Source: Burkholderia sp. Bp8992
Lineage (GTDB): Bacteria > Pseudomonadota > Gammaproteobacteria > Burkholderiales > Burkholderiaceae
Length of the DNA stretch: 64,000 nt
Reading direction: 5' to 3'
NCBI RefSeq assembly: GCF_003853705.1
Contig: NZ_QTQI01000020.1
Span: 1-64,000 of the forward strand
The translations under genes and the position numbers were made by a program. The notes beneath the pieces were generated by a model. That model saw only the letters and a list, made by a program, of their open reading frames with translations. It made no database searches and had not been told where the DNA came from. Positions 9,511 through 18,356 of the stretch are shown here, in pieces (position 1 is the stretch's first letter; the number at the start of each line of letters is the position of its first letter).

Positions 9511-9760
9511 ACGTCCTCCTCTCCCTAAAGGGAGAGGATTCCCACACCTGGCGATGCACGTCCGCATCGGAGAATGTTCAGCGCAGCGTTGATATCTCGA
9601 TCATGCTCGACACCACAGTCACTGCAGGCCCATTCTCTTACTCGCAGTCCCGCGATACCTTTCGGCCGCGTCGTGCTGTCTTTCGATCCGCACGACGAAC
9701 AGGACTGGGTCGAACCGCTTTCGTCCACTTCCTCGAACGTGGCCCCGTGCGCGATCGCCT
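9511..9760 (-). ncRNA. Candidate omega/guide RNA at the tnpB 3' end
   Basis: In characterised TnpB elements the guide RNA overlaps the 3' end of tnpB and runs through the right-end hairpin, with the guide copied from host DNA just outside the element. Here that hairpin is 9517-9538 and the guide would be read from bases below about 9511. The 5' limit is a guess from family knowledge; no promoter or processing site is visible. Confidence 0.35.
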
Positions 9761-10650
9761 TGTAGCGGAGCTTGTTTCGGAAGGACGACCAGGATGCGTC
9801 GTAGACGCTTTTCGCCATCCTGGTTCTGGCAAGTTTGGCAGCCGACACGTTGCCAACCGCGATGTAATCGAAACGCCGCACCAGATCGAGCGCGAGCTTG
9901 TGCTGGAAATCGGCACGCGCATTCGCGACCTTGGCGTGCAGCTTCGCGATATGCCGCTTGTGCTTTCTCGCCCGTTGCGCTTTCGCCAGCTTCTCGGCCG
10001 CGCGTCGGCCGAACCGGTCGTTCGGCAGTTTTTCTCCGGTCGAAAGTGTGGCGAAGTCTTTCAGGCCGAGATCGATGCCGACGCCGGAACGGATAGGTCG
10101 GGCCTGCACATCAGGCATCTCGATCACGATGTTGAGAAACCAGTTACCGCGTGCATCCTGAGCAAAGTTGGTCCCGTCCTTGATCTTGCCGTCGGGAAGC
10201 GGTCGGCTGTTGAACACGCGAAACGTGTTGCCGGCAAAACGGAACGCGTCACCCTCGCGCTTCAGGTCACGCCCCTTCAGCGGCACCCAGCCCAGCGATT
10301 TCCTGCCGCGATAGCGCAGGTAGGGCCGACGGCGCTGACTGCGCGACTTCGCGTATTGCTCGCACGTGGCGTTGACCGTGCCGGAGTGAATACCGAGTTC
10401 CTTGCTGCTCCCCGTCGTCAGCACGTTCAGGTCGAATCCCGTCGGCCACTTCTTGCCCCACTTGAGCGCGTGCTTCTGCGTGTCGTTGCAGAAGTTCCAG
10501 ACGTAGTTCACCGCGCGGCTCTGCTTGTTGAGCAGTCCGTTGAGCGATTTCACCCGGTAGCGATAGACAAGAATCATGCCGGTGATCCTAACCCGTGGAA
10601 GAAGCTGCCTGTCAACAGCATGCCTTTCCTCCCCGTCCGGAAGGACGGGG
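9514..10650 (-). mobile_element. IS200/IS605-group element carrying tnpB only
   Basis: A compact element of about 1.14 kb. One end is marked by a perfect hairpin (9517-9538) that contains the tnpB stop codon, the other by a hairpin with 8-bp arms (10631-10650). Such subterminal hairpins without terminal inverted repeats are characteristic of IS200/IS605 elements, which move as single strands. There is no tnpA, so it is an IS1341-like derivative that would need TnpA in trans. Exact ends were not determined. It lies between an SDR gene and an AraC gene, only 16 bp before the AraC start. Confidence 0.8.
9525..10577 (-). CDS. tnpB: TnpB, RNA-guided endonuclease family
   Basis: A 350-residue TnpB (OrfB). 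RuvC-I Asp169 is in GIDLGLKDFA, RuvC-III Asp328 is in DRDINAALNI, and a zinc ribbon uses Cys293/296 and Cys318/321 (CSSCG, CSDCG). The usual RuvC-II Glu is absent: the strand reads YIAVGNVSAAKL with Gly242, while Glu286 in EVDESGSTQSC may replace it, as reported for TnpB clades with a rearranged active site. TnpB proteins cut DNA guided by an RNA made from the element's 3' end, favouring retention of the element. The stop codon lies inside the end hairpin. ATG at 10577. Confidence 0.9.
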   Translation of the reverse strand: MILVYRYRVKSLNGLLNKQSRAVNYVWNFCNDTQKHALKWGKKWPTGFDLNVLTTGSSKELGIHSGTVNATCEQYAKSRSQRRRPYLRYRGRKSLGWVPLKGRDLKREGDAFRFAGNTFRVFNSRPLPDGKIKDGTNFAQDARGNWFLNIVIEMPDVQARPIRSGVGIDLGLKDFATLSTGEKLPNDRFGRRAAEKLAKAQRARKHKRHIAKLHAKVANARADFQHKLALDLVRRFDYIAVGNVSAAKLARTRMAKSVYDASWSSFRNKLRYKAIAHGATFEEVDESGSTQSCSSCGSKDSTTRPKGIAGLRVREWACSDCGVEHDRDINAALNILRCGRASPGVGILSL

Positions 10651-10666
10651 TTTCTCGGAGCAACTG

Positions 10667-11584
10667 ATGATCGACCCGCTGACCGAAGTCGTGACGCTGC
10701 TGCAACCGGGCGCGCGGTACTCGAAGTACGTGCGCGGCGCGAGCCCGTGGGCGATCAGCCGCACGGTCGCCGGCGAGCCGTTCTACTGCGCGATCCTCGA
10801 CGGCGGGTGCCGGATCGCGATCGACGGGCATGCGCCGATCGAGTTGCTGTCCGGCGATTTCATGCTGATTCCGGCGGCCTACGGCGTCGCGATGTCGAGC
10901 CTCGAACCGCCGGCGCCGGGCGTCGAAACCGCGCCGCCGGTCGCGCTCGACCACGGCGAATTCCGGATCGGCGATCCCGCCAACCCGGTCGACACGCGCA
11001 TGATGGCCGGCAACTGCAGCTTCGGTTCGCCCGACGCATCGCTGCTGGTGTCGCTGCTGCCCCGCTTCGTGCATGTGCGCGGCGAACCGCGGCTGACCAC
11101 GCTCGTGCAACTGGTGCGCGACGAATCGCGCGCGCAGCGCCCTGCCCGCGAGATCGTGCTCGCGCGCCTGCTGGAAGTACTGCTGATCGAAGCGCTGCGC
11201 TTCACGTCCGGCACGCATGCGTCGCCCGGCCTCGTGCGGGGGCTCGCCGACAGCCGCCTCGCGGCCGCGATCCGCCGGATGCACGAACGCCCCGCGCATC
11301 CGTGGACCATCGTCGAACTCGCGAAGGAGGCCGCGCTGTCGCGTTCGACGTTCTTCGAGCGCTTCAGCCGCGCGGTCGGCGTCGCGCCGATGGAATACCT
11401 GCTCACATGGCGCATGGCGCTCGCGAAAGACCTGCTCCGCCGCAACGAAGGCCGCATCGCGGAGATCGCGGCGCGCGTCGGCTACAGTTCCGCGAGCACG
11501 TTCAGCGTCGCGTTCACGCGGCACGTCGGCCGGCCGCCCGCGCAATATGCGCGCGACGAACAGGCGGCGACGAACGACGCATGA
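10667..11584 (+). CDS. AraC-family transcriptional regulator (cupin N-terminus)
   Basis: A 305-residue regulator. The N-terminal cupin-like domain of the AraC-type (about 10-190) includes VAGEPFYCAIL and GDFMLIPAAYGVAMSS. Two helix-turn-helix units follow at about 205-300: IVELAKEAALSRSTFFERF and IAEIAARVGYSSASTFSVAF, ending with GRPPAQYAR. Relatives of this subgroup often control a neighbouring oxidoreductase; here the likely partner SDR (8657-9406) is separated by the tnpB element. The ATG at 10667 has GGAG 7 bases upstream, and the insertion end lies just before that site, so the native promoter has probably been displaced. Confidence 0.88.
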   Translation: MIDPLTEVVTLLQPGARYSKYVRGASPWAISRTVAGEPFYCAILDGGCRIAIDGHAPIELLSGDFMLIPAAYGVAMSSLEPPAPGVETAPPVALDHGEFRIGDPANPVDTRMMAGNCSFGSPDASLLVSLLPRFVHVRGEPRLTTLVQLVRDESRAQRPAREIVLARLLEVLLIEALRFTSGTHASPGLVRGLADSRLAAAIRRMHERPAHPWTIVELAKEAALSRSTFFERFSRAVGVAPMEYLLTWRMALAKDLLRRNEGRIAEIAARVGYSSASTFSVAFTRHVGRPPAQYARDEQAATNDA

Positions 11585-11657
11585 GCCGCGCCCGCCACCG
11601 CCATTGCGCGACCTGCGTACACTACCCGTCACCCAACGACGACGCGCGAGGCATCCG

Positions 11658-12515
11658 ATGACGACAGCGGCCAAGGCCTCCGCCACGACCGACCACTGGC
11701 TCGTCGCACGGCGCGATGCGGAAACCGGCATCGAAAGCCTGCACGCGCATTTCAACGGCCATGCCTACGACGCGCACGATCACGACGACATGCTCGTCGG
11801 TTTCACCGAACAGGGCGTGCAGCGCTTCCAGTGCCACCGGTCGCTGCATACCAGCGTGCCGGGCCGGGCGATCCTGATCGAGCCGGGCGCGATGCACGAC
11901 GGCCATGCGCCCGAAGCCGGCGGCTTCACCTACGGCATGCTGTACCTGCCGCAAGCGTGGGTCGAGCGCGCGGCGCGCCGGCTGGACCTGCCGGGCCTCG
12001 GCGGCGTCGAAGCCACGTTCGGCCATACGCTCGTCGACGACCGCAGCCTCGTCGACGCGATCCGGAACGCATTCTTCGCGATCCACGACAACGAAGGCCG
12101 GCTCGCCCGCGACCAGACGCTCGACCGCCTGCTGACGCGGCTCGGCGGGGAACTGCGCGGCCCGCTCGCGCTGGAAAGCAGCGTCGTGCCGCCCGCGATC
12201 GCGCGCGTGCGCGACCTGCTGCACGAACAGATGGACGGCAACCTCGGGCTCGACGAACTGGCCAGCGTCGCCGGCATCGACCGGTTCCGGCTGACGCGGA
12301 TGTTCCAGCGCGCATTCGGCACGTCGCCGCATGCGTACCTGGTGCGCTTGCGGCTGCGCGCCGCGCGGCGGTTGCTGGCGGCCGGCCGCACGCCCGCGCA
12401 AGCGGCCGCGGACGTCGGCTTCGCCGACCAGAGCCATCTGGGCCGCTGGTTCCGCCGCGCGTACCGGATCACGCCGGCCGCATACCGGCAACTTTGCACA
12501 AACGTTCCAGACTGA
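11658..12515 (+). CDS. AraC-family transcriptional regulator
   Basis: A 285-residue regulator. The N-terminal AraC_binding cupin carries a His-rich entry (YDAHDHDDMLVG) and the typical LIEPGAMHDGH loop. The DNA-binding half has LDELASVAGIDRFRLTRMF and PAQAAADVGFADQSHLGRWF, ending in ITPAAYRQ. This subtype often controls amino-acid exporters or the gene directly downstream. It precedes the DUF2000 gene by 44 bp in the same direction. The ATG at 11658 follows GCGAGG. The ligand is unknown. Confidence 0.87.
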   Translation: MTTAAKASATTDHWLVARRDAETGIESLHAHFNGHAYDAHDHDDMLVGFTEQGVQRFQCHRSLHTSVPGRAILIEPGAMHDGHAPEAGGFTYGMLYLPQAWVERAARRLDLPGLGGVEATFGHTLVDDRSLVDAIRNAFFAIHDNEGRLARDQTLDRLLTRLGGELRGPLALESSVVPPAIARVRDLLHEQMDGNLGLDELASVAGIDRFRLTRMFQRAFGTSPHAYLVRLRLRAARRLLAAGRTPAQAAADVGFADQSHLGRWFRRAYRITPAAYRQLCTNVPD

Positions 12516-12559
12516 TCGCGCGCGGCATCCGATCATGGGCGCTCCAACCAGGAGCAAGC

Positions 12560-12967
12560 ATGTTCGATACGAAAGTAGCGCTGATCGTGCGTGACGATCT
12601 CGCAGCGTGGCAGAAACTCAATGTCGTCGCGTTTCTCGCGACGGGTGTCGCGGCCGGTGCGCCCGAGGCGCTCGGCGAGCCTTACGAGGATGCGGCCGGC
12701 CGCCGCTACAGCCGGATGCTCGGCCAGCCGATGCTGGTGTTCGCGGCCGATTTGAACGGGTTGCAGGCCGCGCACCGGCAGGCGCTGTCGCGCGAATTGA
12801 CGATCGTGCCCTACGTGCGCGCGATGTTCTCGACCGGGCACGACGCGGCCAACCGCGAAGCGTTTCGCGCCGAGGATGCGGCGAATCCCGATCTGGTCGG
12901 GCTGGCATTGCACGGGCCGAAGAAGGCCGTCGACAAGGCGGTGAAGGGGCTGGCGTTGCATGCCTGA
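12560..12967 (+). CDS. DUF2000 family protein
   Basis: A 135-residue protein of the DUF2000 family, small alpha/beta proteins related to peptidyl-tRNA hydrolase-like folds but without an established function. It begins MFDTKVALIVRDDLAAWQKL and contains NVVAFLATG and the PYVRAMFSTGHD segment. AGGAG lies 6 bases before the ATG at 12560. It probably shares a transcript with the AraC gene upstream. Its last 131 bp are repeated at 14188-14318, bracketing a toxin-antitoxin insert; the gene itself is intact. Confidence 0.8.
   Translation: MFDTKVALIVRDDLAAWQKLNVVAFLATGVAAGAPEALGEPYEDAAGRRYSRMLGQPMLVFAADLNGLQAAHRQALSRELTIVPYVRAMFSTGHDAANREAFRAEDAANPDLVGLALHGPKKAVDKAVKGLALHA
12837..12967 (+). repeat. 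131-bp direct repeat, copy A (3' end of DUF2000 gene)
   Basis: Copy A forms the last 43 codons and stop of the intact DUF2000 gene. Aligned by eye with copy B at 14188-14318 it differs at 3 of 131 bases, two of them synonymous. The repeats flank a 1.2-kb insert with the HEPN and MNT genes. Confidence 0.95.
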
Positions 12968-13007
12968 CGCACCAACGTTTCGAGTCGGCACTTCGACACG
13001 GTAACGG

Positions 13008-13457
13008 CTACGGTGTGCCCAGCAACTCAGGCTTGTTCCCCGCCAGCCATGCCTTTACATCGATCATGAGCGCGGCCGCGCTATCGAAACACTCGCGAAC
13101 GGCTGACGACTGAACCACATCCCCGGAGTAATCGGACAGATTGCGCTGCTTGCGCAGCGCGTCGAGTACGATCATGCGCGCGACCGGCAAACCAATCGTC
13201 TGCGGAAGCGTCTGGATCGCCGTCTGGTGGTGCCCTGGCCGACTCGTCAATGTACGAAAGCCGTTCGCGTGCAATGCAAGCATGGCGAGTTGCATGATCG
13301 CCTTGTAGGCGGCATCGAAGCGGTTTTCATTGCTCAACCCTGCGAGTTGCGCATCGGCCAGATTCCGTTCCGCCGCGGCCAGCAGGCGCGCCGCTTGTCC
13401 GCCGTCCGGTTCGACCGCATCGAGACTAACGCCGAGCAAGTTCTGCAAGGTCATCAT
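13008..13457 (-). CDS. HEPN-domain protein, putative toxin of MNT/HEPN pair
   Basis: A roughly 149-residue helical protein. Features include AAERNLADAQ, FDAAYKAIMQLAMLAL, a GHHQT motif and LRKQRNLSDYSG. The RN..DY motif and GHH point to the HEPN group that pairs with winged-helix MNT proteins rather than to HepT, whose RX4HXY motif is not present. HEPN toxins act as RNases or are inactivated by adenylylation from the MNT partner. The gene overlaps the MNT gene by about 32 bp, so the two are co-translated. Start is uncertain between ATGs at 13457 and 13454 and a TTG at 13466. Low similarity makes the toxin role an inference from context. Confidence 0.7.
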   Translation of the reverse strand: MMTLQNLLGVSLDAVEPDGGQAARLLAAAERNLADAQLAGLSNENRFDAAYKAIMQLAMLALHANGFRTLTSRPGHHQTAIQTLPQTIGLPVARMIVLDALRKQRNLSDYSGDVVQSSAVRECFDSAAALMIDVKAWLAGNKPELLGTP

Positions 13458-14025
13458 CGCTACCAATCAGGAATATCTTGGGTTTTCCAAGCACGTCTCG
13501 CAAAAATGCGTCCTGCCCGGCGACGCCGTCGCGAAACTCGTCTGGCGCCAGTACCTTGGGATTGATGTCGCGCCCCAATGTTGTCTGTGCGTCGTAAAGC
13601 AGCCGGACCACCGTTGCAAAGCCAACTGAGCCGATCACCATCACATCGATGTCGCTGTCCGCCGTCTCCTGGCCACGCGCAACGGAACCGAATACGAACG
13701 CCACGCTGATTTGCTCCGTGCAGGGCAACAACGCTTCGGACAACACATCACCCAACCCCGACGTCTTTCGCATGATCGAAGCCAGTTCCTCGTAGATCGG
13801 ACAACTTCGATTGGCGTGATAGCGCACCTGGTTACCTTGCCGATCCCTGCTCAGGATGCCGGCTTCGGCCAGCTTGCTCAGTTCCTTGTGAAGCGTACCG
13901 GGCGTCGTGCCGGTCAAACGAGCGATTTCGCGGACGTGCAACGCCTGTTCGGGCCGCAGCAGGAGCAAGCCCAGCACGCGGCGCCGGTAGTCGCTAAACA
14001 GGGTCGAGGCAATGGATCGTAGCAT
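13426..14025 (-). CDS. Winged-helix MNT nucleotidyltransferase, putative antitoxin
   Basis: A 199-residue fusion. Residues 10-75 form an ArsR-like winged helix (HVREIARLTGTTPGTLHKEL, then the wing around RQGNQVRYH). Residues 105-160 form a minimal nucleotidyltransferase domain with GSVARG (113-118) and SDIDVMV (Asp125, Asp127). The third acidic position of the family is not obvious (RDINPKVL), so activity may be reduced. In MNT/HEPN systems this enzyme AMP-modifies and silences the HEPN toxin. The winged helix suggests that it also represses its own operon at the palindromes at 14037-14148. ATG at 14025 chosen over TTG at 14037, which lies inside the first palindrome. Confidence 0.82.
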   Translation of the reverse strand: MLRSIASTLFSDYRRRVLGLLLLRPEQALHVREIARLTGTTPGTLHKELSKLAEAGILSRDRQGNQVRYHANRSCPIYEELASIMRKTSGLGDVLSEALLPCTEQISVAFVFGSVARGQETADSDIDVMVIGSVGFATVVRLLYDAQTTLGRDINPKVLAPDEFRDGVAGQDAFLRDVLGKPKIFLIGSDDDLAELARR

Positions 14026-14036
14026 GATTGGCTTCA

Positions 14037-14059
14037 ATTGTAGCTGAATTAGCTACAAT
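14037..14059. promoter_or_regulatory. Operator-like palindrome 1 of the MNT/HEPN operon
   Basis: A perfect inverted repeat with 9-base arms, ATTGTAGCT and AGCTACAAT, around a 5-base spacer, ending 11 bp before the MNT start codon. Core TGTAG and CTACA half-sites are separated by 9 bases, the same geometry as the second site. Likely bound by the winged helix of the MNT protein. Confidence 0.65.
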
Positions 14060-14108
14060 GCATAGTCCAAGTCGCCGATTTTGTACCGACGCCGACGAAA
14101 GATCCGAA

Positions 14109-14148
14109 TGTAGCATATTCGACTACAATTGAAGCCGATTCGACTACA
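14109..14148. promoter_or_regulatory. Operator-like sites 2 and 3 of the MNT/HEPN operon
   Basis: Site 2 (14109-14127) repeats the TGTAG-N9-CTACA layout of palindrome 1. Site 3 (14130-14148) is a weaker version, TGAAG-N9-CTACA. The two share the direct repeat ATTCGACTACA. Their position upstream of the operon fits cooperative autoregulation. Confidence 0.55.
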
Positions 14149-14187
14149 TTTTGACTGCGACCAGCGCGCCATCCGGCGCCGAATCCA

Positions 14188-14318
14188 GGCACGACGCGGC
14201 CAACCGCGAAGCGTTTCGCGCCGAGGATGCGGTGAATCCCGATCTGGTCGGGCTGGCGTTGCACGGGCCGAAGAAGGCCGTCGACAAGGCGGTGAAGGGG
14301 CTGGCGTTGCATGCTTGA
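14188..14318 (+). pseudogene. 131-bp repeat copy B: remnant of a DUF2000 gene 3' end
   Basis: The segment encodes the last 43 codons and stop of a DUF2000 protein but has no start or N-terminal part. It differs from the intact copy at three bases, one changing Ala to Val. It marks the distal edge of the toxin-antitoxin insertion, like the left-over half of a gene whose 3' end served as the integration site. Confidence 0.85.
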
Positions 14319-14431
14319 ACGCTGAAGCGTCGAAGCCGGTACGGTGCTTCGGGTCAGCGATGCGTGAGGGTTCCTTCGCGAGTCGGACTGTCTCGCGACG
14401 CTACGCCGGAAACGCCCGTACGGCCAGACCG

Positions 14432-15355
14432 TCAGCGGCCGGCCGCCTCCATCTCCGCGCGCCGCGGCCGCGCGGGCCGCTCGACGTGCTTGCCGGCCAG
14501 CCACACGCCGATCGCGACGACGACGATGCCGACGTAGGTCGTCACCTCGATCCGGTCGCCGAACATCCACGCGGCCCACATCAGCGTCACCGGCGGTTCG
14601 AGATAGACGAGGGTCGCCACGCGCGTCGCGGGCATGCGCTTGAGCAACGCCCACAGCGACAGATACGCGATGAAGGTCGAGAACAGCGTCAACCACACGA
14701 CGGACACCCACACGTTCGGTTGCGTCGGCACATGCAGGTTGCCCGTGACGATTCCGCACACGGCGAACAGCACGAGGCTCACGCACCCCTGTACGAACAG
14801 CGGCAGGAACAGCCCGTCCTCGTTGCTGCGCGCGGCCGTCAGCGCGCGCCGGCGCTGATAGATCGTCGCGATCGACAGCCCCAGTGCGGACACCAGCGGC
14901 AGCAGGTACATGACGATCCCGACCGACCCGGCCGGCAACGCATACTGCCCGCCGATCACGATGCCCACGCCGACGAACCCGACGACGAGCCCGGCCCACT
15001 GGCGCGCCCCGCTGCGCTCGCTGCCTTCGAGCGACGTCATCGCGGCCGTGATGAGCGGCTGCAGCGCCGCGACGATCGCCGCGATGCCCGGCGGCAGGCC
15101 GTGCTGGATCGCGATATACACGCAGGTCAGATAGAGAAACTGCGACAGGAAGCCGATCACCGCGTGATAGCGGATTTTCTCGAGCGTCAGCCGCCCGAGC
15201 TGGCGATTGAGGACGATCGCCAGGCACAGCGTGACGAGCAGGAACCGCCAGAACAGCAGGTTGAATGCGCCGGCCGTCTCCGCGCCGAGCTTCGCGCCGA
15301 TGAAACCGGAACTCCACGACAACACGAATACGAGCTGAAGCAGGAATAGCTGCAT
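14432..15355 (-). CDS. EamA/DMT-family transporter
   Basis: A 307-residue inner-membrane protein with about ten hydrophobic helices in two EamA repeats. Typical family segments are VLSWSSGFIGAKLG at the N terminus, FWRFLLVTL, LQPLITAAM and YLEPPVTLMWAAWMFGD. Members export amino acids and small metabolites. The ATG at 15355 lies 13 bp after the stop of the oxygenase gene, so the two are in one operon together with the methyltransferase. The natural reading is that it exports the product of those two enzymes; this is inference. Confidence 0.88.
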   Translation of the reverse strand: MQLFLLQLVFVLSWSSGFIGAKLGAETAGAFNLLFWRFLLVTLCLAIVLNRQLGRLTLEKIRYHAVIGFLSQFLYLTCVYIAIQHGLPPGIAAIVAALQPLITAAMTSLEGSERSGARQWAGLVVGFVGVGIVIGGQYALPAGSVGIVMYLLPLVSALGLSIATIYQRRRALTAARSNEDGLFLPLFVQGCVSLVLFAVCGIVTGNLHVPTQPNVWVSVVWLTLFSTFIAYLSLWALLKRMPATRVATLVYLEPPVTLMWAAWMFGDRIEVTTYVGIVVVAIGVWLAGKHVERPARPRRAEMEAAGR

Positions 15356-15368
15356 GGGGCGACGGCTC

Positions 15369-16358
15369 TCAGAAAGTGGCCGGGGACAGGCGCTGGTCGT
15401 GCAGGTCCTCGGGCCGGATCGGCTCGAGCCCGAGGCGGCGATACTGCAGCTCGGCGTCGTCCCGGAGCGCGCGCTGCAGCGCCAGCCAGTTGACGATCGT
15501 GCGTGGAATGCCGTCGTCCGACGCGAGATGCCAGAACCCGTTGTCGTCCTCGCGCGTGTACGGGCAATGAAACGACAGCACCAGCGACATGCGGCGCCCG
15601 GCCACGACCGGCTCGACACCATGAAACAGCTTGCTGCCGTAGATGAGCAGCGCGTCGCCCGCGTTGTCGAGATTCGCGGCCCTCACATGCCGGCGTTCCC
15701 TGTCGTGACGATCGAACGTCTCCGCGGTCGATTCGTAGAACAGAAAGTTGCCGCCCTCATAGTCGGAACGATCCGACAGCACGATGTTCAGCACGAAACT
15801 GGTGCCGTCGGTGTGCCACATGCCCAGCTGTTCCTTGCCGTCGGCGCGCGAGCCCGTCGGATAGTAGTAGTTGAACTGCGACCGCGCATTGACCATCGGA
15901 TACGGAATCAGCGGCGCGCCGGCAAGACGCGACACCCGCATCAGGAATGCGCGGTCGTGCATCATGTCGTCGATGAAGCGCGAGCGGTTCGTCACCGCAC
16001 GCACGCGCTTCGAGATGATCCAGTTGCTGCTCGACGCGCTGCGCTCGAGCGCGCGACCGATCTCGCGCAACGCACTCACCGCTTCGTCGGAGAACAGCCC
16101 GCGCAGATGGCACACCGCATTCAGCGAATCCGAGCGCGTGCCGCGCATCGGCACATCGCGGTAGCCGAGATCGTCGAGGTTGCGGCGATATCGCACCTGA
16201 TAACCGTCGCGCAGGCATGCGCCGGTCCAGCGCATCGGTTCCTTCGACGCATCCATCGCGCCTTCGACGTTCACGCCGGCGGACAGCGACGTCTGCAACG
16301 CGAGCCTCACCCGATCGAACCCTCGCGCAAACACCGGCAATGCATTTCCCTTGTTCAT
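15369..16358 (-). CDS. Fe(II)/2-oxoglutarate-dependent oxygenase
   Basis: A 329-residue non-haem iron oxygenase. The facial triad is visible: His182 and Asp184 in MWHTDGTS and His246 in KLFHGVEP, with Arg255/256 as 2-oxoglutarate ligand in AGRRMSLV. YEGGNFLFY supplies the core strand. Such enzymes hydroxylate, epoxidise or halogenate free amino acids and natural-product intermediates. It lies 29 bp after the methyltransferase gene and 13 bp before the transporter gene. The substrate is unknown; an N-methylated amino acid made by the first gene is a plausible candidate. Confidence 0.82.
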   Translation of the reverse strand: MNKGNALPVFARGFDRVRLALQTSLSAGVNVEGAMDASKEPMRWTGACLRDGYQVRYRRNLDDLGYRDVPMRGTRSDSLNAVCHLRGLFSDEAVSALREIGRALERSASSSNWIISKRVRAVTNRSRFIDDMMHDRAFLMRVSRLAGAPLIPYPMVNARSQFNYYYPTGSRADGKEQLGMWHTDGTSFVLNIVLSDRSDYEGGNFLFYESTAETFDRHDRERRHVRAANLDNAGDALLIYGSKLFHGVEPVVAGRRMSLVLSFHCPYTREDDNGFWHLASDDGIPRTIVNWLALQRALRDDAELQYRRLGLEPIRPEDLHDQRLSPATF

Positions 16359-16387
16359 CGCGCGCCTCGCTGTCGACGTTTCGGCAT

Positions 16388-17371
16388 TCAGCTCTTGAAC
16401 TGCGCAATCTGGTACACGACGCTGCCGTCGCCGCTGCGCAACTCGTCAATCACGCGGCAATTGCCGTGGCTCAGGCGCACGTGGCGGAATTGCTCCGGCG
16501 TGTATTTCAGGCAGACGTTGGTGATCAGATGCCCGTCGGCTCCCGCTTTCGACACCGGTTGCAGCGTGACCGCGACATGGAACTGGTCGCCGAGCAGATT
16601 GAGCCGCACGATCGACACATGATGCTCGCCGAGCGGCTCGAAGCCCTGCTGCCGGCTGACGATCTCGGAGAACCGCACCATGTTCTCGTTCCGGTAGAAG
16701 TTGTAGATAGGCTCTTCGCGCCCCTCCACGAGCAGCTGCATCTCCGATACGACGTAGGTCGACCGGCCGCCGAGATTGCGGATGAGCCGGCCGATCGTCA
16801 CGGGCAACTCGTTGCCTTCCTGGAACCCGAGCATCGTGATGAACGTCACGTCCTGGCCCAGGTCGATATGGTTCCATTGCACGTTCCGGTAATCGTCGGC
16901 GATGTAGTTGAAACAGCCGGGCGTTTTCAGGAACGGCATGATCGCGTGCCGCATCGCGTCTTCGGACGATTCGTTGATGTCGACGGCCGTGTAGCGCAGA
17001 TGGTCCGGCCCGCCGCCGCTGACGCCCTTCATCAGCTCGGTCGTCTTCACCGGCTCGGGCCCGAGCTCGATGTAATGGACATCGCGGCCGCGCGACAACG
17101 TGGCCAGCCGCTCGCTCAACGCGCCGATCGCTTCGCGCAACGAACCGTTGCCGTCGCGATCCGCGCACAGCGCCGGGCTCCGCACGCCCAGCTCGTTCAG
17201 GTTGCGCATCAGCGAAAAGACTTCTCGACCCGCTTCCCTCCGCCGCGCATCATCGTCGTCAGTGCGATTCAGCGTCGAATACTTCTCGTGATTCTCGACC
17301 GTCCATACCAACTCCGCCTTCAGCTTCCTGTCCCGCACCAATGCATCTACGACAAAATCATTGATCGACAT
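16388..17371 (-). CDS. EgtD-like SAM-dependent amino-acid N-methyltransferase
   Basis: A 327-residue methyltransferase of the histidine-specific methyltransferase family (EgtD, PF10017). Motif I is IELGPEP (101-107), the SAM ribose acid is near Asp131, FNYIADDY (154-161) matches the family's acidic motif, and LGFQEGN (181-187) replaces the usual LGS.IGN. EgtD trimethylates histidine on the way to ergothioneine, but no EgtB, EgtC or EgtE partner is here, so the acceptor may be another amino acid. ATG at 17371 is chosen because GGGGA precedes it; the TTG at 17395 is less likely. First gene of a three-gene operon with an oxygenase and a transporter. Confidence 0.78.
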   Translation of the reverse strand: MSINDFVVDALVRDRKLKAELVWTVENHEKYSTLNRTDDDDARRREAGREVFSLMRNLNELGVRSPALCADRDGNGSLREAIGALSERLATLSRGRDVHYIELGPEPVKTTELMKGVSGGGPDHLRYTAVDINESSEDAMRHAIMPFLKTPGCFNYIADDYRNVQWNHIDLGQDVTFITMLGFQEGNELPVTIGRLIRNLGGRSTYVVSEMQLLVEGREEPIYNFYRNENMVRFSEIVSRQQGFEPLGEHHVSIVRLNLLGDQFHVAVTLQPVSKAGADGHLITNVCLKYTPEQFRHVRLSHGNCRVIDELRSGDGSVVYQIAQFKS

Positions 17372-17504
17372 GAATCGTTCCCCGGATGCGTGCAACGCCC
17401 GACCGGCTGCCTGCCGTTGTCTGCCTGTTGACCCGAGAATATGGGATGCTCAATAATTCCGTCAATCGACATTACCTGAATTACTGATTCGGAAAAACCA
17501 AATC
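17372..17504. promoter_or_regulatory. Divergent methyltransferase / LysR promoter region
   Basis: A 133-bp gap between divergent starts, AT-rich from about 17440 to 17500 with ATTACCTGAATTACT near 17471, a dyad of the kind bound by LysR regulators. The position fits control of the methyltransferase-oxygenase-transporter operon by the LysR protein. Confidence 0.45.
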
Positions 17505-18356
17505 ATGCCGCGCACCCTTGACGTCGACCTGCTGCGAACCTTCCACGCCGTCGCGAAGCTCGGCCGGTTCAAGGATGCGGCCGTTCATGTGAACCGCAGC
17601 CCGTCGTCGGTCACCGCGCAGATCCAGAAGCTCGAGGAGATGGTCGCGCAGCGCCTGTTTACGCGAAACAACCAGGCCGTCGAACTCACGCAGTACGGCC
17701 ACAAGCTGCTGAGCGACACCACCGAGTTCCTGCTGAGCCACGACCGGCTCGTCGAATCGCTGTCGCCGCAGATGCTGACCGGCAAGCTGCGCCTCGGCAT
17801 TCCCGATTCCTACGCGGCGCACTTCATGGCGGAATTCCTGCCGCGCTTCGCCGCCGATCGCCCGTTGCTCGAACTGACCGTCGAAGCGCGTTCCAGCGAG
17901 GAATTGCAGCTGCTGTTCTCGCGCGGCCAGCTCGACATCACGATCGCCGTCGTGCCGAAGGCGCCGCCGCACGCCGAATTGCTCAGCAAGACCCATCCGG
18001 TGTGGGTCGCCGCGCGCACGTTCAAGTTCAATCCCGATGCGCCGTTGCCGATCGCGGTGCAACTGCAGGGTTGCCCGTACCGCGACACCGCGCTGAACGC
18101 GCTGAAGAAGGCGAAGATCGCGCACCGGATGCTGCTCGAAAGCGCCAGTTCGCCGGCGGTCGAGGCCTGCATCGCGAACGGTCTCGCGGTCGGCCTGATC
18201 GAGCACGACCGCGTGTCGGGCAACCTGACGAGTCACGTCGCCGGCATCGTGCTGCCCGATCTCCCGCCGCACCTGATCACGATCCTGACGGACGACAGCA
18301 ACCGCGCCGCGCTGCATCTGCGCGACGTTCTGAAAAGCACGTTCAGGATCGGCTAG
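17505..18356 (+). CDS. LysR-family transcriptional regulator
   Basis: A 283-residue LysR protein. The winged helix covers residues 1-65 (LLRTFHAVAKLGRFKDAAV and SSVTAQIQKLEE). The effector domain starts near residue 90 (GKLRLGIPDSYA). It is divergent from the EgtD-like operon at 17371 and is its likely regulator. The effector may be the operon's amino-acid substrate. ATG at 17505. Confidence 0.88.
   Translation: MPRTLDVDLLRTFHAVAKLGRFKDAAVHVNRSPSSVTAQIQKLEEMVAQRLFTRNNQAVELTQYGHKLLSDTTEFLLSHDRLVESLSPQMLTGKLRLGIPDSYAAHFMAEFLPRFAADRPLLELTVEARSSEELQLLFSRGQLDITIAVVPKAPPHAELLSKTHPVWVAARTFKFNPDAPLPIAVQLQGCPYRDTALNALKKAKIAHRMLLESASSPAVEACIANGLAVGLIEHDRVSGNLTSHVAGIVLPDLPPHLITILTDDSNRAALHLRDVLKSTFRIG

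Follow-up and report, generated by a model that had tools for sequence, protein, structure and literature searches.

Positions 14432-18356 of the window, the 64,000-nucleotide stretch of Burkholderia sp. Bp8992 DNA analyzed here, encode four proteins. The minus strand codes for a 307-residue EamA-family exporter of the drug/metabolite transporter superfamily (14432-15355), a 329-residue Fe(II)/2-oxoglutarate (2OG) oxygenase (15369-16358), and a 327-residue SAM-dependent methyltransferase (MT) of the EgtD fold belonging to a clade of its own (16388-17371). A 283-residue LysR-type regulator is encoded on the plus strand (17505-18356). Only 13 bp separate the oxygenase and EamA genes and 29 bp the MT and oxygenase genes, and the divergent starts of MT and LysR are 133 bp apart, with their shared promoter region at 17372-17504. 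The open reading frames thus bear out the tight three-gene operon and divergent LysR that an earlier interpretation of the DNA letters (the sequence-only reading) had placed at 14432-18356. The best named relative of the MT, from Burkholderia sp. BCC1644, is 98% identical, and 10.5 kb of DNA around the cassette is 95.5% identical to that strain. In 105 pairwise comparisons among 15 complete Burkholderia loci, the ratio of mean dN to mean dS was 0.050 for LysR, 0.091 for MT, 0.145 for EamA, and 0.187 for the oxygenase. All four genes are under purifying selection and are therefore more than chance reading frames.

The EgtD fold of the MT, C-terminal domain included, is assigned from a low-confidence structural model (mean pLDDT 55.6), which limits the quality of the fold search. 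In that search the best nine PDB entries were all EgtD, and residues 18-325 of the model match the predicted fold of EgtD, most of its length. The MT also keeps the E-L/F-G...K and Y..(V/I)-D-I signatures, the loop glycine and asparagine, and the T...K motif of the C-terminal domain. An hhalign comparison of MT and EgtD gave an E-value of 2.4e-5 over 48 columns, and the MT profile (A1) matched an EgtD encoded beside an EgtB-like gene at 3.5e-5. The window MT matched no fitting Pfam family, PF10017 included. PF10017 was weakly matched by nine of the 13 members of the MT alignment (E limit 1, best 1.2e-4), and at E ≤ 0.01 by four of 11 MT relatives (best 3.4e-5). Searches of PDB sequences with the single MT sequence and with a profile found no EgtD.

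In the tree the MTs form their own clade with 100/100 support, on very long branches of 4.74 and 4.19 changes per column. All 36 EgtDs have the loop motif G-S-(T/S/N)-(I/L)-G-N while all 11 aligned MTs have G-F-Q-E-G-N, so the altered loop (LGFQEGN) pointed out in the sequence-only reading is confirmed. With the loop's Ser, Thr, and Ile replaced, the equivalents of Gly161 and Asn166 are still kept in 11 of 11 MTs. The residues expected to face the substrate side chain were taken from an alignment at about 12-15% identity to EgtD. Glu282 (Glu in 36 of 36 EgtDs) is Asn in 11 of 11 MTs and Ser284 (Ser in 35 of 36) is Cys in 11 of 11, and Tyr206 of EgtD has no confident counterpart (MAFFT pairs Y226 with Phe). 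Asn166 of EgtD contacts the alpha-amine of histidine (PMC8593015). Only the retained Asn166 and Gly161 equivalents point to a putative role for the MT as an amino-acid N-methyltransferase. Given the separate clade, the changed Glu282 and Ser284, and the lack of an EgtB neighbor in the conserved unit, we rejected the MT as a true EgtD. The fold search and the tree together agree with the earlier call of an EgtD-fold methyltransferase, one that is outside the EgtD clade.

To place the cassette relative to ergothioneine biosynthesis, we searched 65 Burkholderia genomes for EgtD and EgtB. Both were matched in all 65, whether or not the genome carried the cassette (in one, G032, EgtD was in two pieces). 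Wherever their coordinates were compared (G004 and G453 are examples), egtB and egtD adjoin; one such pair was also read. In the window, queries from a relative gave no EgtB match better than an E-value of 0.80 and no EgtD match better than 0.027. The earlier statement that ergothioneine partner genes are absent thus holds for the window but not for the genus. In three Pseudomonas carriers of the cassette, no PF10017 match at E ≤ 0.001 was found anywhere in the genome (0/3). Together, these distributions indicate that the cassette is neither the source of EgtD for ergothioneine in Burkholderia nor dependent on ergothioneine in those Pseudomonas. The EgtD fold might still suggest a side branch of ergothioneine or hercynine synthesis, or a variant enzyme acting on histidine. 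We consider this very unlikely given the separate MT clade, the Glu282 to Asn change in all 11 MTs, the lack of a PF10017 match in the three Pseudomonas carriers searched, and the EgtD and EgtB found in every Burkholderia genome searched with or without the cassette. Weak PF10017 matches (E 5.5e-4 to 7.8e-4) were also seen in three genomes (G445, G007, and G440). The open frames that contain them span 741-3310 residues, so the matches may mark methyltransferase domains within large synthetases.

By structure comparison, the nearest solved structures to the free-standing oxygenase are BesD, HalA, HalB, and HalD, enzymes that act on free lysine or ornithine. The predicted fold, from a model of middling confidence, is thus closest to the BesD/Hal/Hydrox free-amino-acid enzymes, in line with the sequence-only reading of a free-standing oxygenase. 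The structural alignments have 12-20% identity, and the N-terminal 40 residues of the cassette oxygenase are outside the matched fold. A plain Foldseek search had a PKHD-type oxygenase as its top match. Searches of PDB sequences with the oxygenase found nothing or only weak matches, and BesD was matched at an E-value of 0.04 once distant oxygenase relatives were added. PF23169 (HalD) was matched by nine of 10 oxygenase members at E ≤ 0.01 (best 5e-6) but not by the window oxygenase, and one distant relative scored 22.8 bits with PF23169, under the cut-off of 26.

The cassette oxygenases share the invariant residues H182-x-D184 (H182-T-D184), H246, and R256. The His and Asp are present in 10 of 10 rows of the alignment (A6). 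BesD-type halogenases lack the iron-binding aspartate. As the cassette oxygenase keeps it, halogenation was rejected, and by its ligand set the enzyme would be a hydroxylase. Lysyl hydroxylases, Fe(II)/2OG enzymes that modify proteins, also appear in the list of structure matches. They might suggest a macromolecule as the target of the MT and oxygenase, or else two enzymes with unrelated substrates that have nothing but regulation in common. We regard that as improbable, since the lysyl hydroxylases are further down the list, the best matches are free-amino-acid enzymes, and the four-gene unit, small-molecule exporter included, is found in two genera. Distant relatives of the oxygenase at two other loci (L107, 4001-8377; L108, 5985-12420) belong to gene rows that also code for two short-chain dehydrogenases and for proteins resembling an epimerase and a fumarylacetoacetate hydrolase; in L108 the row is followed by a betaine-type ABC transporter (names assigned by eye).

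The exporter belongs to the EamA family, as had been proposed, with PF00892 matched in two stretches (E 1.3e-26, 93.9 bits, cut-off 28.2). EamA proteins carry many substrates. Like amino acid exporters of the family, the cassette EamA has weak long matches to amino-acid exporter models; unlike them, it scores below every NCBIfam curated cut-off listed, including the amino-acid/amine transporter model TIGR00950 (66 bits, cut-off 230.2). The regulator matches PF00126 (E 2.6e-16) and PF03466 (E 3.4e-19). Its nearest NCBIfam model is LrhA at 120.8 bits, below the cut-off of 530. An imperfect dyad near 17478-17490, found by eye, is a candidate LysR operator. We aligned the promoter region from 22 of 24 Burkholderia loci, including seven of nine that lack the enzymes, and nine Pseudomonas loci. 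The divergent region is kept even where both enzymes are gone, with the LysR-adjacent bases retained in seven of seven aligned enzyme-less loci (G033 and G037 were excluded by a length filter).

To determine how conserved the linkage is, we surveyed the loci surrounding the MT. A single MT search across genome contigs yielded 21 named loci. LysR, MT, oxygenase, and EamA are encoded in identical order and orientation in 19 of them, 10 from Burkholderia and nine from Pseudomonas, and the other two, both Burkholderia, are remnants. This conserved linkage under a divergent LysR supports the sequence-only reading. That reading had listed three findings that would count against it. One was made, the ergothioneine genes elsewhere in the genus; the other two, an MT placed in the EgtD clade and the absence of conserved linkage, were not.

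In a sample of 199 Pseudomonas genomes, 10 encode the MT. Nine of the 10 loci were viewed widely (all but G562), and eight of these have all four genes. Three of the nine are contigs already named (L012, L013, and L016), leaving six further loci (L061-L066), five of them complete; a seventh, L067, is the L013 contig. The exception is L062, with no EamA within 16.5 kb and an IS21-like pair downstream. Beside its EamA-less cassette (9785-16476) are encoded a pyridoxamine-phosphate-oxidase-like protein, a class III aminotransferase, and an FAD/NAD(P)-binding protein, along with the IS21-like pair (named by eye). These may be parts of a larger, related pathway. Across the loci, MT identity to the window protein is as low as 46%. 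The flanking genes are of at least five kinds (by eye), those of Burkholderia, the putida-like loci, L011 (P. helleri DSM 29165), L062, and L063/L064/L066. Elsewhere the MT is rare. A class sample had two matches in 369 genomes, one being an EgtD beside an EgtB-like gene, and a phylum sample had one in 299, a Burkholderia (G001). Three Burkholderia records in a plasmid collection also have the MT; the one region viewed came without gene annotation.

We also examined how often Burkholderia retains only part of the cassette. Of the 65 genomes, 24 encode the EamA (E ≤ 1e-60) and the same 24 encode the LysR at 90% identity or higher, a 25th match at 41% being a different gene. The oxygenase profile matched 20 genomes, 15 at full length. 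The cassette is complete in 15 of the 24 loci, and in the other nine the MT and oxygenase are deleted or present as remnants. These 24 already include the named Burkholderia loci, ten complete and two remnant, which are not additional cases. The nine incomplete loci have eight different remnant structures. At one extreme, a gapped stretch of MT residues 1-146 is left and the oxygenase is gone; others retain just the final residues of the oxygenase, or little beyond the MT start and the oxygenase end. Such remnants indicate that the enzymes were lost, as opposed to an ancestral state with two genes. A tree built from LysR and part of EamA, which is not a species tree, requires five changes between the complete and incomplete states, at least four of them by well-supported branches. 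Shuffled labels average 7.5 changes, suggesting the state is partly inherited.

Despite the loss of the enzymes, LysR is full length and free of stops in all nine of these loci. EamA is intact in seven of the eight that could be tested, with stop-free matches extending to residue 306 or 307 of 307; the G435 copy is frame-broken, and that of G033 runs off the end of its contig. There was no clear sign of relaxed selection after the loss: in most cases dN/dS of the orphan EamA and LysR, compared with the complete loci, is near the value among complete loci themselves. The ratio is higher for LysR in G453, G036, and G435 and for EamA in G453 and G455, but shared history enters into these ratios, which therefore do not date the loss. 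Retention of pump and switch without the enzymes, a repeated pattern that the sequence-only reading missed, is expected if EamA and LysR protect against, or answer to, a compound made by others. The same pattern would arise if EamA had a separate role, and EamA and LysR may not have had time to decay if the losses are recent.

The retained EamA and LysR would also fit detoxification, with the MT and oxygenase modifying a toxic amino acid or amine from soil or plants, EamA expelling it, and no product being the purpose of the pathway. Distant relatives of the oxygenase, in two of the four contexts viewed, adjoin catabolic-looking dehydrogenase-like and hydrolase-like genes, and in one of them betaine-type ABC transporter genes (by eye), which also favors that explanation. 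Yet no uptake or degradation gene is part of the conserved unit in the loci viewed, and under detoxification the pump should be lost as readily as the enzymes. We therefore think detoxification unlikely, though less so than the other alternatives.

We favor, with a probability of roughly 0.55, the cassette being a minimal pathway for the biosynthesis and export of a small modified amino acid, N-methylated and hydroxylated. The MT would use SAM to methylate an amino acid other than histidine at its alpha-amine. Either ahead of this step or following it, the 2OG oxygenase would hydroxylate the same free amino acid at an aliphatic carbon, and EamA would export the product. LysR may sense a metabolite, probably the substrate or product, and control the divergent operon. 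As several lineages have kept the exporter and regulator after losing the enzymes, export by EamA probably also protects against the compound arriving from outside. Without a gene in the unit for building a non-proteinogenic precursor, the starting amino acid would have to come from general metabolism. AzeJ and VioH make azetidine-2-carboxylate from SAM. By analogy, the MT-fold enzyme might instead transfer an aminocarboxypropyl group or cyclize SAM, with the oxygenase hydroxylating that product, but we give such chemistry a low probability.

If the cassette is such a biosynthesis and export pathway, the product could be a secreted, bioactive, hydroxylated amino acid betaine or N-methyl amino acid not previously described, for example an antimetabolite or a signal. 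LysR and EamA might then be a self-resistance module kept by non-producing Burkholderia lineages, much as strains that make no bacteriocin hold on to the immunity genes. We give this proposal a fairly low probability. Each part of the cassette is of a known kind and both enzyme folds are known. Among the matches listed in the literature searched (titles and the starts of abstracts, mostly outside subscription papers and preprints), we found no account of the four-gene combination, and no substrate is assigned there to a clade of EgtD-fold enzymes that is separate from ergothioneine metabolism and linked to an exporter and a BesD-like hydroxylase. If correct, the proposed pathway to a secreted modified amino acid would be one of the smallest of its kind. 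The cassette is present in Burkholderia and several Pseudomonas species. The complete and enzyme-deleted relatives are a natural set for asking why export and sensing persist.

Other features were noticed in the window. At 12834-14318, a minus-strand gene pair lies between two copies of a 134-bp direct repeat (97% identical, 1351 bp apart) that corresponds to the 3' end of a DUF2000 gene. One codes for an HTH-nucleotidyltransferase (13426-14037) with a weak match to the MntA antitoxin (29.6 bits, cut-off 60) and the other for a small protein without a Pfam match (13008-13466). The repeat-flanked pair resembles a toxin-antitoxin-like module that has been inserted. Four copies of a 21-nt partly palindromic repeat (14018-14150) immediately upstream of the HTH-nucleotidyltransferase gene may be an autoregulatory operator. 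About 4 kb from the cassette, a TnpB/OrfB-type IS605 gene (PF01385 and PF07282) is encoded at 9525-10577.
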